NCBI GenBank assembly: GCA_024401455.1
Contig: JAKSLA010000028.1
Span: forward strand, 1-38,329
DNA: 38,329 nt
From: Paludibacteraceae bacterium
GTDB taxonomy: Bacteria > Bacteroidota > Bacteroidia > Bacteroidales > Paludibacteraceae
Reading direction: 5' to 3'
Position numbers and translations under genes: made by a program. Under the pieces are notes generated by a model, which was not told the DNA's origin, did not search any database, and saw only the letters and a list, made by a program, of their open reading frames with translations. Positions 21,154 to 25,019 of this stretch are shown piece by piece (position 1 is the stretch's first letter; each line of letters begins with the position of its first letter).

Positions 21154-21687
21154 TTATTCATTCTCCGCCTCTTTGTATTTAGCGGAAAGCACTGCCAAGA
21201 ACTGGCTTATCTGCTTCACAGCCGCCTGCGTATCCTCGGTAATCTCTTTTTTCTGAAGTCGCAACATCAAAATGCCATAGAGTGCATCCAAAGACAACTC
21301 CACATCGTCCACCTCCGCTCCGGCTCCTAATTTTTTACGGAAATCCACCAAAAAAGGAAGCGTCTTAAAGAACAAGGCATTGTACTGTATCTCCTTCGGC
21401 TCCTGCAGCAACTCAAGATGAAGGCTATTGGCATCCGAAACAATATTCTTTACAATTTGAAGATGCCCCTTCTCCTCTATCTTTTCGACGTGCATCATCT
21501 CAATTAAGTTTTCATACCACTCCTTCATTTCAGTTTTCACCGATTCTGGCTGGTCAAACTTGTCTATCAATGCAGTCTTTACGACAGCAATGTCCAAACG
21601 GCAAGCACGAAGGATATCCTCCAACTGCCACATATACAAAATATACTCCGAGATATTCTCGGACCTCTTCTGTTTTGCTATTAACAT
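21154..21687 (-). CDS. DUF4924 family protein
   Basis: This 177-residue cytoplasmic, largely helical protein belongs to DUF4924, a family restricted to Bacteroidota. The N-terminus LIAKQKRSENISEYILYMWQLEDILRACRLD is characteristic. No catalytic motif is visible and the function is unknown. The start is settled by the promoter: a -33/-7 pair at 21706-21736 predicts transcription from about 21699, downstream of the longer frame's first ATG at 21708, so the ATG at 21687 is the likely start with a short leader. It converges with the alkylation-repair gene, the two stop codons being about 60 nt apart. Confidence 0.85.
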   Translation of the reverse strand: MLIAKQKRSENISEYILYMWQLEDILRACRLDIAVVKTALIDKFDQPESVKTEMKEWYENLIEMMHVEKIEEKGHLQIVKNIVSDANSLHLELLQEPKEIQYNALFFKTLPFLVDFRKKLGAGAEVDDVELSLDALYGILMLRLQKKEITEDTQAAVKQISQFLAVLSAKYKEAENE

Positions 21688-21705
21688 ACGCCCTCTATTT
21701 TCAGA

Positions 21706-21736
21706 CAAAATTAGGACTTTTTCATCGTTTTCGCAA
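21706..21736 (-). promoter_or_regulatory. Promoter of the DUF4924 gene
   Basis: On the minus strand TTG (21734-21736), a 20-nt spacer and TAATTTTG (21706-21713) fit the Bacteroidota consensus exactly. Confidence 0.7.
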
Positions 21737-22173
21737 CACGAAAATTTTCAGCGGAGAAACATGAAGATGTAAAAAAACAGCCTTTTCATCGCAAAAAACG
21801 GCCTTTCAAGCCCCAACTACTACCATTCTCCTCATTTGATATACAAAAAAGCACATTTGATATATATAATTTCCACACGCAGACGAATACACTACATTTG
21901 CAATGTAATTTTTTGACTTTAGCACACATTAATCATTTAAAAAACCTTGCCAACCATTCGGGAGGCCGAGGTCGAACATTGAAACGAATCATATAAAATC
22001 CTTGTAAGTGCGGCAGAAATGCCGCACTCTTAATTCAAGGTGATTGTTTACATTAATTTCAGAACCATAACAAGATTCGTACATGAGTAATGCCACAAGT
22101 CATAATCAAGTGAAAATTAGTGCACTTAAGTCTAATTAACACAAGGTGCACCAAAGCACTGCTAACTTTTTTT
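21737..22173. other. Long intergenic region with hairpins; candidate small RNA
   Basis: No protein gene is seen here. A -7 box TACATTTG lies at 21893-21900 inside a perfect dyad TACATT-TGC-AATGTA (21893-21907). Downstream are a small TCGG/CCGA hairpin near 21958-21969 and a strong 9-bp stem with a GAAA tetraloop at 22007-22028, flanked by CCTTG (22000-22004) and CAAGG (22036-22040). Together they outline a possible structured transcript of about 130 nt. From about 22080 onward lies the upstream region of the kinase operon, with two GTGCAC words at 22120-22125 and 22146-22151. Confidence 0.4.
22007..22028. other. 9-bp hairpin with GAAA tetraloop
   Basis: AGTGCGGCA and TGCCGCACT pair perfectly around GAAA, a GNRA-type tetraloop. 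It is followed by TCTTAATT, not a clean T-run, so it may be a weak terminator or part of a structured RNA. Confidence 0.6.
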
Positions 22174-22181
22174 TATTTTTG
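22174..22181 (+). promoter_or_regulatory. -7 promoter box of the kinase-regulator operon
   Basis: TATTTTTG matches TAnnTTTG and predicts a start near 22188. The first in-frame ATG at 22193 would then have almost no leader; ATGs at 22202 and 22205 allow a short one. The second GTGCAC word (22146-22151) overlaps the expected -33 position. Confidence 0.45.
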
Positions 22182-22192
22182 CGGAGTTTATT

Positions 22193-23254
22193 ATGATAAT
22201 CATGATGGAACGCAAAAGCAAAAATCCGTTATACAATTTTTTAATGAACCCGAAATTCGGGAAATGGCGTCGGTTTGCTTTTGTGATTTTAATGCTTCTT
22301 ATTTCTTTGAGGGAGGTGATCTTTTCCTTTCAATCAGGATTGGCAGAACTCAAAGGAGGCTCCCTACTACTCATCACCATCTATTTTCTCATCAATCTAT
22401 ATCCGGCCCAACTGATTTTGGGTTCGAGGCTCACAAATTGTTTGCACGAAAAGAGATATCTTCATTTCGTTATCAGTTCCTCTGCAATCATCGTCAGCAC
22501 AATCATCGTCAAGATAGCCATAGAATACTTTTTGCAAATCAAGTTCAACCTGCACACAAGCCTTGAAAACGGCATCACCCTTTACACACTATGGGATTGG
22601 ACAAATAAATTTGCGACAACACTGACTTGCATATATGGCGTCTCCTCTATTTTCCTCTTGAAAAATTGGATCAAGGAGAAGAAGAAAATACAAAAAGTAG
22701 AAACCGAACAATTGATGTCGGAATTGGAGTCGCTAAAAGAGCAAGTCGATTCCTCACTCCTACTTGACACCCTAAAAGGCACGAGTGAAATGGCCACCAC
22801 CGACCCGGAAATGGCCAGCCAAAGAATACGGCTTTTAAGCGCAGTGCTACGCTACGAACTCTACGACTGCAAACGCGACAAAGTGTTTCTCTCGTCAGAA
22901 ATCTCATTCATCAACAATGTACTAAAACTTTGGACCTACCAACTGCCCCACCTCAAATATACGGTCAGCACAGAAGGAAATGTACAAGGTCTATTGATTC
23001 CACCGCTATTGATTATCTCGCTGATTCAAATCATATTACGGAAATTTGACACAAACGACAAAAGCGAGCACTGCATTGACATCTGCATTTCATGCAACGG
23101 AAGAGAGGTTTGCTTCGTATGCAAACACAAACAACTTAAGGAGAGGGTCATGCCGACCATTGACATACTTCGCCGTTTAAGAATACTCTTCGGAGACAAA
23201 TGGCAGATCAACTGTGATTTGACCCAAACCGAATTTAAATTCGAAAGGATATGA
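22193..23254 (+). CDS. LytS-like histidine kinase homolog lacking all catalytic motifs
   Basis: This 353-residue membrane protein has the same plan as the kinase encoded next to it: four hydrophobic segments (about residues 27-46, 57-80, 90-112, 138-157), a coiled linker and a His_kinase/HATPase-like C-terminal half. The half aligns, but the catalytic residues are gone. The H-box QINPHFLFNTI of the neighbour is QVDSSLLLDTL here, with Ser188 in place of the phospho-acceptor His. The N-box FVEN is LIQI, with Ile280 for Asn. The GGIGIAN loop is replaced by VMPTIDI. It is therefore probably a pseudokinase, and since the frame is intact it looks maintained. It overlaps the next gene by 4 nt (ATGA), implying coupled translation and perhaps a heteromer. 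Starts at 22193, 22202 or 22205 are all possible. Confidence 0.82.
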   Translation: MIIMMERKSKNPLYNFLMNPKFGKWRRFAFVILMLLISLREVIFSFQSGLAELKGGSLLLITIYFLINLYPAQLILGSRLTNCLHEKRYLHFVISSSAIIVSTIIVKIAIEYFLQIKFNLHTSLENGITLYTLWDWTNKFATTLTCIYGVSSIFLLKNWIKEKKKIQKVETEQLMSELESLKEQVDSSLLLDTLKGTSEMATTDPEMASQRIRLLSAVLRYELYDCKRDKVFLSSEISFINNVLKLWTYQLPHLKYTVSTEGNVQGLLIPPLLIISLIQIILRKFDTNDKSEHCIDICISCNGREVCFVCKHKQLKERVMPTIDILRRLRILFGDKWQINCDLTQTEFKFERI

Positions 23255-24300
23255 CACGCAAGGAAATCCTATACATCCTAACAATAGACCCTAAATGGAG
23301 TATTCTGAGGCATTTAGTGCTCCAGATGCTGATTCTCCTAATCACATCCGTCGTTTTTCTCGACAGGGCCAACAATACGTTCTGCTTTGACCAAAACTTC
23401 ATCAAGGGCTGGACTTGCTACTTCCTTTCCATCAACTTTGCCATTTACACCAATATTTACATATTGACCCCAAAATACATGATGACAGGACGGCTATCAC
23501 GCCACATCAGCATAACCTTCGTCATTTCAACCATATTGGCACTGATCATCAACGGCTCGCACTTCTATTTTTGTCCGCCCCAAGGCCTCTCAAAAGGTGC
23601 AATGGTGGCTTTCTTCATCATGTTGATGCTATCGTCCTACATCATCTATGCCATGATGGTGACCTGCACCTCCTCCTTTCTCCTACTGCAAGTTTGGATT
23701 AGGAACAAGAAACGGCAAGAAGAATTGGAAATCAACACGTTGAACGCAAAACTAAAAATTCTGAGGAACCAAATAAATCCACATTTCTTGTTCAACACCA
23801 TCAACAACGCCAACATGATGTTGAAGAAAGACCAGAATTCGGCTTCATTCATTTTAGATAAATTGAGAGACCTTTTAGGCTATCAATTAAGCAACGCCAC
23901 CAAAAATCTGGTGCTACTGAACGACGAAATAAAACTACTTGACGACTATCTACATTTAGAGAAAATCAGGAGGGACAACTTCTCCTATGAAATAAATACT
24001 GAAGGAAATACTGGAAATGTATTGCTTCCTCCCCTTTTATTCATTATATTTGTTGAAAATGCAGTGAAGTACAACCCAAACGACGGGTCAAAAATCATTG
24101 TATCCTTTAAAAGAGATGAAGAGGGGTTGCTTTTCCTATGTCAAAACACCAAAAGCGAACATTACGAAAAGTCGGATGTTGGCGGTATCGGCATAGCAAA
24201 TGTCAAAAAGCGATTGGAACTTTTGTTCCCTACGTCCCACTCGTTGGAAGTTGAGGACGGAGAAAGTATGTTTACAGTAAAACTTAGTATAAAAGTCTAA
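23251..24300 (+). CDS. LytS/YehU-type sensor histidine kinase
   Basis: This 349-residue kinase has four N-terminal transmembrane helices (about residues 18-36, 54-74, 84-103, 117-150) with no extracytoplasmic domain. After them comes a His_kinase domain: INPHFLFNTINN with phospho-acceptor H178, the N-box FVENAVKYNPN with N270, and the G-box GGIGIANVKKRLELLF at 311-326. All needed motifs are present. Its partner is the LytTR regulator that starts on the last base of its stop codon (TAATG). With so little sequence outside the membrane it may sense a membrane or intramembrane signal. In Bacteroidota such pairs often regulate surface or stress genes, but the regulon here is unknown. It was probably duplicated to give the degenerate upstream gene, since the two share architecture and alignable blocks. 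Confidence 0.93.
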   Translation: MTRKEILYILTIDPKWSILRHLVLQMLILLITSVVFLDRANNTFCFDQNFIKGWTCYFLSINFAIYTNIYILTPKYMMTGRLSRHISITFVISTILALIINGSHFYFCPPQGLSKGAMVAFFIMLMLSSYIIYAMMVTCTSSFLLLQVWIRNKKRQEELEINTLNAKLKILRNQINPHFLFNTINNANMMLKKDQNSASFILDKLRDLLGYQLSNATKNLVLLNDEIKLLDDYLHLEKIRRDNFSYEINTEGNTGNVLLPPLLFIIFVENAVKYNPNDGSKIIVSFKRDEEGLLFLCQNTKSEHYEKSDVGGIGIANVKKRLELLFPTSHSLEVEDGESMFTVKLSIKV

Positions 24301-25019
24301 TGAAATGTATTATTATTGACGACGAGCCTCTTGCAAGAGAGGCGGTAGAATCCTTAATAAAGGACCATTCTACACGATCTGAGATTGTCGGCAAATTCAA
24401 CAATGCAGAGGCTGCTGCTGCTTTTATGGCAAGCAACACGGTCGATTTAGCGTTCCTTGACATTCAGATGCCAGGCATCACGGGCATCGAATTTGCGAAA
24501 CAAATTCCACGTTCTACTATGGTCATATTCACTACGGCATACTCTGAATATGCATTGGACAGTTACGAAGTGGATGCCATCGACTATCTGACGAAGCCAA
24601 TAGACGAGGAACGATTTAAAAAGGCAATACAAAAAGCGGAATCCTATTACGACCTCCTCTCTAAGAAGGAAGAGACGGAAAGCAAATTGGAAGTAAACAA
24701 ACAAGAGTATTTCTTGGTAAAATCAGACCGTAAATTCTTTAGGGTGAAGTTTGACGACGTCCTTTTCGTAGAAGGTTTGAAAGATTATGTCATCATTCAT
24801 TTGGAATCGCAAAAGGTCATTACTCGTATGAGCATGAAGGGAGTGGTTGACATCCTACCTCCATCCAAGTTTATGAGAGTAAACAAATCATACATCGTAA
24901 ACACGGACCAAATAGAGTCATTCGACAACAATGACATCTACATCAAATCGGATGTGATTCCTATCGGAAACATGTACAGAGATGACTTCATGAACAATTA
25001 CGTGGCGAAGTTCCAATAA
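24300..25019 (+). CDS. LytTR-family response regulator
   Basis: This 239-residue regulator has a receiver domain with acidic pocket DD (residues 7-8), phospho-acceptor D54 in AFLDIQMPG, T79 and K99 (TKP). A linker follows from about 112 to 134. The LytTR DNA-binding domain starts near residue 137 (YFLVKSDRKFFRVKFDDVLFVEGLKDYV) and includes SMKGVVDILPPSKFMRVNKSYIVN. LytTR proteins bind direct repeats upstream of target genes. Start and stop overlap the kinase (TAATG), so the three genes form one tightly coupled operon. A strong hairpin lies 24 nt after the stop codon. Autoregulation at the operon's upstream region is possible but unproven. Confidence 0.95.
   Translation: MKCIIIDDEPLAREAVESLIKDHSTRSEIVGKFNNAEAAAAFMASNTVDLAFLDIQMPGITGIEFAKQIPRSTMVIFTTAYSEYALDSYEVDAIDYLTKPIDEERFKKAIQKAESYYDLLSKKEETESKLEVNKQEYFLVKSDRKFFRVKFDDVLFVEGLKDYVIIHLESQKVITRMSMKGVVDILPPSKFMRVNKSYIVNTDQIESFDNNDIYIKSDVIPIGNMYRDDFMNNYVAKFQ

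Follow-up and report, generated by a model that had tools for sequence, protein, structure and literature searches.

Reciprocally degenerate LytS-type gene pairs in Bacteroidales and their possible action as split histidine kinases

The 38,329-nucleotide contig JAKSLA010000028.1 of a Paludibacteraceae bacterium (assembly GCA_024401455.1; this whole stretch is hereafter called the window) carries three overlapping genes, which encode a LytS-like membrane protein devoid of the catalytic landmarks of a histidine kinase (A), a live LytS-type kinase (B), and a response regulator with a LytTR DNA-binding domain. Such A-B pairs recur in the order Bacteroidales, where each partner has lost conserved residues that the other retains, the genes are under selection, and the two partners are in some cases fused into one protein. 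Based on these sequence patterns, we propose that A and B probably form an obligate heterodimer with one complete active site, to which B would give the phospho-acceptor His and the ATPase domain, and A a patch on helix 2 together with a second membrane sensor. The A-B heterodimer is well supported by these data, and a shared active site is what we infer from the distribution of the retained residues.

Gene layout and catalytic landmarks in the window

The operon and the residues discussed below are located as follows.

22193..23254, + strand: A, pseudokinase of 353 aa, with four predicted N-terminal helices, a degenerate DHp domain and a CA-like domain without ATP-site motifs
22754..22756, + strand: codon 188 of A, Ser, at the position of the phospho-acceptor His
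22850..22864, + strand: helix-2 patch R220-Y224 of A (R-Y-E-L-Y), which A retains and B has for the most part lost
23030..23032, + strand: codon 280 of A, Ile, at the position of the N-box Asn
23251..24300, + strand: B, live LytS-type kinase of 349 aa, with NPHFLFN, FVENAVKY and GGIGIAN motifs
23782..23784, + strand: codon of His178 of B, at the phospho-acceptor position
23878..23892, + strand: residues 210-214 of B, G-Y-Q-L-S, which are R-Y-Q-L-Y in solitary relatives (helix-2 patch)
24181..24201, + strand: G-box of B, GGIGIAN
24300..25019, + strand: response regulator with a LytTR DNA-binding domain, 239 aa, with the acidic pocket, Asp, Thr and Lys present

All three open reading frames are intact, and their coordinates agree with the overlaps of 4 nt (A/B, ATGA, the start codon of B sitting within the stop of A) and 1 nt (B/regulator) that an earlier, sequence-only reading of this DNA had described. 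PF06580 (His_kinase) was the sole Pfam family above its cut-off in A (E 1.5e-8; 35.2 bits, cut-off 25.2); B exceeded the cut-off for the same family (E 5e-21), and the third protein those for Response_reg and LytTR. Further, A and B are homologous (26% identity across 215 residues, E 4e-22), and in their alignment Ser188 of A falls on His178 of B, Gln279-Ile280 on the Glu-Asn of the N-box, and the G-box segment is absent from A; the phospho-acceptor His, the N-box and the G-box are all present in B of the window. Open reading frames, Pfam and alignment are thus in agreement with the first claim of the sequence-only reading, i.e., that a 353-residue LytS-like protein without the His, the N-box Asn and the G-box precedes a live LytS kinase and a LytTR gene. 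Structure models, built on 5-row alignments, were of moderate confidence (mean pLDDT 67.2 for A and 64.6 for B). With that confidence the four N-terminal helices of A are visible, and the model (mean pLDDT 67) matches the fold of the kinase domain of GanS.

The same gene order with the same losses was found in four of four genomes of the genus, so the arrangement is more than chance or a peculiarity of one strain. Among these genomes A is 64-87% identical and dead in each, with S, E, Q and E at the phospho-acceptor place. The synonymous divergence (dS) was usable solely for the comparison G001-G002 (0.88 for A), the remaining genus comparisons being saturated; for this pair omega amounted to 0.075 (A), 0.069 (B) and 0.039 (regulator), and, within A, to 0.060 (membrane part), 0.030 (DHp domain) and 0.137 (ATPase-like part). 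For A, the likelihood ratios against omega 1 ranged from 199 to 287 across the six genus comparisons, in five of which dS was saturated. The dN/dS of the pseudokinase, which the sequence-only reading had singled out as a check, hence lies far from about 1, and its other concern, that homologues might retain the His and the loss concern this strain only, is answered by the 51 A relatives described below, none of which has it. Decay of A specific to this strain was rejected on account of the shared losses in the genus, the omega of 0.075 and the absence of the His in those 51 sequences.

Occurrence, reciprocal losses and descent of the pairs

A search with a single sequence gave matches in 106 of 300 genomes of the family, and the 26 best family loci outside the genus (L015-L040) all had the His, one of them (L015/L045) being a fusion. 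With a profile of the four A proteins, matches were obtained in 225 of 393 order genomes; 20 of the top-ranking sites were retrieved together with the surrounding DNA, and 14 of them proved to be new pairs. When the 393 order genomes were searched with a profile of 18 live partners, 17 kinase loci scored at least 370 bits and the rest at most 285 bits. These 17 loci fall in 10 genomes and 8 families, and a dead A gene lies directly upstream of B at 16 of them, L097 being the exception. Among the 30 best loci from 395 genomes of the class, pairs were confined to members of Bacteroidales, and the three best loci outside the order (L102-L104) were lone kinases of the same type. Two positive families were sampled further (118 and 121 genomes) and 41 stretches fetched; these later samples were picked for being positive, and valid frequencies are those of the 393-genome order search. 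In 170 genomes of the window's own family, matches at E 1e-72 or better comprised the four genus members and one fusion only.

In total, 51 A-B pairs were collected, all in Bacteroidales and all with A first, two pairs being near-duplicates of others. The regulator lies directly downstream in 45; of the six exceptions, three are truncated at the end of a contig, one carries its regulator at a distance of 733 bp, and two have none within 1.4 and 5.0 kb. The acidic pocket of the 45 regulators reads D, D, D in 44 (one gap), with K in 45. One pair (L079:4852-6968) has no regulator in the 5 kb downstream, and its genome carries a second, complete system (L080). As to whether the first gene occurs without the other two, a point raised by the sequence-only reading, no A-type protein without an adjacent live kinase was found in the loci read, which are the best loci per search, so that a lone diverged A could escape; the B profile, on which the later searches relied, is blind to a lone A. 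Viral contigs yielded 8 loci with remote kinases; all kinases read there had the His, and no such A-B pair was seen.

The catalytic landmarks are distributed one-sidedly. The phospho-acceptor His is present in 0/51 A and 51/51 B sequences; the N-box Glu-Asn in 0/51 A (Gln-Asn in 3) and 50/51 B; and both G-box Gly in 0/51 A and 47/51 B, where the motif misses (L225, L229, L233 and L234) are truncated or broken frames or contig-end cuts. The opposite pattern is found in helix 2 of the DHp domain, in which solitary kinases of the same clade carry an R-x-x-L-Y patch, with Arg in 8/8 and Tyr in 8/8. The Tyr was kept in all 51 A sequences and in one of 50 B (one B row being gapped), and the Arg in 49/51 A and 22/50 B; B shows a broad range of residues in these places (N, K, S, E and others). 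Among 87 solitary kinases outside pairs at the inspected loci, 79 have the Tyr, 78 the Arg and 87 the His; this set corresponds to 92 sequences minus two fusions (L015 and L148) and three with a dead neighbour below the score cut-off (L057, L059 and L138). A column test (49 A and 47 B rows) started from the 76 columns invariant in the 8 solitary relatives. Twenty-two were kept in B (at least 90%) and lost in A (below 50%), including the H-, N- and G-box residues and an R-R-x-x-F segment; three were kept in both; and three were kept in A and lost in B, namely R220, L223 and Y224, which occupy one face of one helix.

In a tree of 61 sequences, A falls on one side of a branch (support 100/97), B likewise (99/95), and A and B group together (92/86, not starred) to the exclusion of the lone kinases L097 and L102-L104. 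Pairwise distances within A and B correlate (45 pairs, Mantel r 0.84, 0/9999 permutations), also after thinning to 27 pairs (r 0.73, 0/9999), and 22 of 42 splits are common to the A and B trees, compared with 0.17 by shuffling. Given this agreement, one duplication followed by joint descent is the simplest reading, also where a genome has two or three pairs.

Furthermore, four proteins from three families join an A-type membrane part and a degenerate DHp domain, without the ATPase domain, to a B-type kinase.

L045: 566 aa, from the window's family
L230: 581 aa, from a second family
L227 (L227:189-1916): from the same second family as L230, its kinase part broken by a stop codon in a fragmented assembly
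L148: 581 aa, from a third family

The stop codon in L227 may be either real decay or an assembly error. Compared with models of B and of solitary kinases, the first parts fit the A model best (154, 150 and 148 bits against 76-90), including that of L148, a weak match yet above the alternatives (52 against 29-30); the second parts fit B best. The first parts stop at positions 222-231 of the A model, just past helix 2, and the patch is divided in them as in the separate genes: Arg is kept in 4/4 and Tyr in 3/4 A parts, and both are lost in 4/4 B parts. A separate A of 250 aa (L206) also terminates after helix 2. The fusions and this trimmed form jointly suggest that the membrane domain and the DHp domain are the parts of A that are needed, and that A and B touch. 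Another A (L089:5978-6955) stops early, and its profile match crosses stop codons. A further candidate fusion, L209 (702 aa), was rejected, since its frame crosses an ambiguous junction base and its close relative L234 has a normal A end there.

These data also bear on whether A could be a functionless, decaying duplicate kept by linkage, for which one could invoke the variability of its ATPase-like domain, absent altogether in L206 and the fusions, and the early end of A in L089. Such a reading is already contradicted, and we give it hardly any weight, considering the low omega and the likelihood ratios of A (five of six from dS-saturated comparisons), the occurrence of pairs in 8 families of the order sample, and 12 columns that are invariant among 18 A sequences.

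The proposed heterodimer and its alternatives

According to our proposal, the three genes would constitute a three-part signalling system built around a sensor kinase that works only as an A-B heterodimer. In solitary relatives a single chain has both sets of residues, so that a homodimer would contain two complete sites; the two copies that arose from one ancient duplication would each have retained just what one site needs, given that a single complete site suffices if A and B always pair. A would contribute its own membrane sensor, half of the four-helix dimerisation bundle and the patch R220/L223/Y224, and B the phospho-acceptor His and the ATP-binding domain. Since the residues kept are the His and ATPase of B and helix 2 of A, the patch would serve the site of the partner chain, acting in trans on the His of B in autophosphorylation, in regulator docking or in positioning of the ATPase domain. 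B would phosphorylate its own His, after which the LytTR regulator would be phosphorylated and act at target promoters, a direct repeat with a 21-bp period before the operon being a candidate site for it. By helix counting in the A model, whose confidence is moderate, R220 would lie level with position 188; either position is some 16 residues away from the turn near 204. The pattern of losses, the selection, the co-occurrence and the fusions are observed, and the physical heterodimer, the trans action and the direction of signalling are what we infer.

The sequence-only reading had held that the dead copy heterodimerises with the live kinase as a sensor or brake. The pairing is strengthened by the reciprocal loss, the fusions and the matching trees; the brake found no specific support, because the helix-2 patch, otherwise conserved, is retained in A and has largely disappeared from B, which suggests that A is a working half of the enzyme. 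It could still be argued that A is an accessory modulator, i.e., a sensor or brake acting on a B homodimer or in a part-time heterodimer, with B a complete enzyme by itself. RocA of Streptococcus pyogenes is described as such an accessory protein of CovS in extracts of the published account (PMC7028121), a lone kinase of the same clade occurs beside pairs (L097), and the Arg is kept in 22/50 B sequences. We nevertheless regard this explanation as unlikely, in view of the loss from B of the Tyr in 49/50 and the Arg in 28/50, both of which the solitary clade relatives keep in 8/8 and other solitary kinases mostly keep as well (Tyr in 79/87); these losses would be unexpected if B still had to function as an ordinary homodimer.

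A different explanation accepts that A and B pair and dispenses with a shared site: the helix-2 change in B would be surface remodelling to accommodate A, and the patch of A would serve folding or regulator binding. The wide variation at the B positions is compatible with remodelling, and is also explained by lost constraint; GanS, which lacks the Tyr, speaks for it as well. The predicted position of the patch level with the His site, by helix counting in the A model of moderate confidence, would argue for a shared site instead, and we consider remodelling somewhat unlikely.

Several observations weigh against an obligate heterodimer with one shared site that arose by a single duplication. When 88 motif columns were removed from a tree of 122 sequences, the support for A dropped to 76, and B of L085 grouped with solitary kinases, so that B needs one more change. 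The lone kinase L097 shares its genome with three pairs. The division of the patch is incomplete, with 22/50 B sequences keeping the Arg and one the Tyr, and the Tyr is missing from 8/87 solitary kinases outside pairs; in the solved LytS-type GanS a Gly stands in its place, indicating no strict requirement for the Tyr across the wider family. Moreover, A and B each descend from one or a few ancestors, and the loss of the Tyr may represent one old event followed by drift rather than 50 independent ones. Finally, among the fusions, Pfam detects a second His_kinase stretch only in L045 and L230, with none in L227 and L148.

Concerning L085 (L085:4644-6829), the placement of its B possibly reflects independent pairing, partner exchange or a long-branch effect.

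Surrounding DNA and comparison with known systems

The DNA upstream of the operon contains the following features.

21833..21864, + strand: direct repeat CATTTGATATA with a 21-bp period, present in 4/4 genus genomes, in two of which the first copy carries two changes
21893..21900, + strand: TACATTTG, promoter-like, 38-39 bp after the start of the second repeat in 4/4 genus genomes
21905..22030, + strand: conserved stretch with a hairpin (approximately 22007-22028), a candidate short RNA or leader
22174..22181, + strand: TATTTTTG, promoter-like, starting 18-19 nt before the ATG of A in 4/4 genus genomes

An exact match to the repeat pair occurs once in the 3.27-Mb assembly, and the 21-bp-period repeat stands 38-39 bp before TACNTTTG in the four genus genomes. 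Its period fits the geometry of known LytTR sites, and the promoter-like TACATTTG resembles the Bacteroidota consensus TAnnTTTG. Four of the 13 predicted pairs of the hairpin show two-sided, pair-keeping changes, and three are broken in one sequence each. A search of Rfam over positions 21600-22300 gave nothing above the gathering score (isrF, 13.1 bits against 40, E 0.23). Judging from four sequences, i.e., the window and the DNA upstream of A in L041, L042 and L043, the interval 21833-22030 could represent an autoregulatory site, a leader or the gene of a small RNA. As a general operator site, a repeat of 21-bp period was rejected: one lies upstream at 6 of the 48 pair loci with enough sequence, four of these from the genus, and it is thus no feature of the family at large.

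A CarboxypepD_reg protein of about 785 aa and outer-membrane type is encoded directly upstream in 18/51 pairs, a count in which some of the remaining pairs have too little upstream sequence to tell, and of the fusions L045 and L227. Six of these proteins (L080:2520-4862, L081:7513-9879, L082:2403-4757, L084:5734-8091, L088:7158-9518 and L045:1470-3830) are mutually 46-63% identical. This neighbour could be the source of a signal or a target, except in the window's genus; it was discarded as an invariable fourth component of the system, the four genus genomes having only remote matches (23-25% identity). At two loci a DUF6268 protein (E about 1e-107) lies directly upstream of the pair instead (L086:6736-7647 and L089:6988-7890).

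Taken together, A and B may represent natural split histidine kinases, with complementary losses after duplication, a single asymmetric site acting in trans and, in some cases, fusion of the halves, which in the window's genus may control an adjacent small RNA; we put this fuller picture forward tentatively. Histidine kinases are normally symmetric homodimers, and the assignment of residues to one His or the other has to be established for each kinase separately. Residues divided between two chains would constitute a natural experiment, from which those of one site become readable from sequence, and two membrane sensors per kinase would offer a simple way of integrating two signals.

Within the LytS-type family PF06580, A matches the profile and the fold and lacks the His, N-box and G-box, whereas B has all the motifs; matches to a histidine-kinase profile therefore include conserved members unable to be kinases. 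The nearest solved LytS-type structure is the kinase domain of GanS (6swk/6swj), in which a single chain bears the H, N and G motifs, and whose helix 2 (LRYNLG) has the Arg and Leu of the patch, with Gly for Tyr. Proteins with a histidine-kinase fold that regulate other kinases have been described for DivL (Caulobacter) and RetS-GacS (Pseudomonas), RetS forming a heterodimer with GacS. These belong to different histidine-kinase families and are not known to constitute a gene pair with a LytTR regulator.

A second comparison is with FasB/FasC/FasA(-FasX) of Streptococcus pyogenes, the kinases of which we take to be of the AgrC/ComD type. The sequence-only reading knew of no described family of this arrangement, which calls for some qualification: no description of the Bacteroidales A-B family was found among the open-licence PMC papers listed in our searches, but the Fas system is a published three-part analogue (PMC12675982). 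Extracts of that account describe an operon of two kinase-like membrane proteins and a regulator termed ComE-like, in which the partners interact with each other and neither with itself in two-hybrid assays, and in which one partner is proposed by the authors to be a pseudokinase with a dispensable ATPase domain; the locus includes a separately transcribed small RNA gene (PMC12675982). Two histidine kinase-like genes and a LytTR/ComE-like regulator in one operon are likewise found here. The Fas kinases, however, are of another family, with six predicted transmembrane helices (PMC12675982), and according to the same extracts the His that is required there belongs to the partner that can do without its ATPase domain, whereas here A has neither and B both. 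The present system is not classed as Fas-type because its dead partner lacks the His. Reciprocal loss and fusions, both seen here, are absent from the extracts of the Fas account (PMC12675982), and the counterpart of its small RNA would be the candidate RNA with the 21-bp-period repeat and hairpin, in the four genus genomes only.

Two further cases involve pseudokinases that act on live kinases, both given as in extracts of the published accounts. RocA, a histidine kinase homologue called a pseudokinase, interacts with the live CovS; a form without the CA domain complements if overexpressed, and its DHp His is present and not needed (PMC7028121). RocA is an accessory protein of CovR/S, unlike the fixed gene pair with reciprocal loss found here. 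In Corynebacterium glutamicum the paralogous kinases ChrS and HrrS heterodimerise and a dead copy aids the signalling of the other, the truncated ChrS itself showing no two-hybrid interaction (PMC9491836); that ChrS pseudokinase, however, is a laboratory-evolved frameshift and not a natural gene family (PMC9491836). FasB/FasC/FasA is the nearest system in logic, and A and B would work in a manner similar to FasB/FasC or RocA/CovS; the A-B family is nevertheless separate from these systems by protein family, by the location of all catalysis on one partner, by complementary loss and by its fixed pairing.

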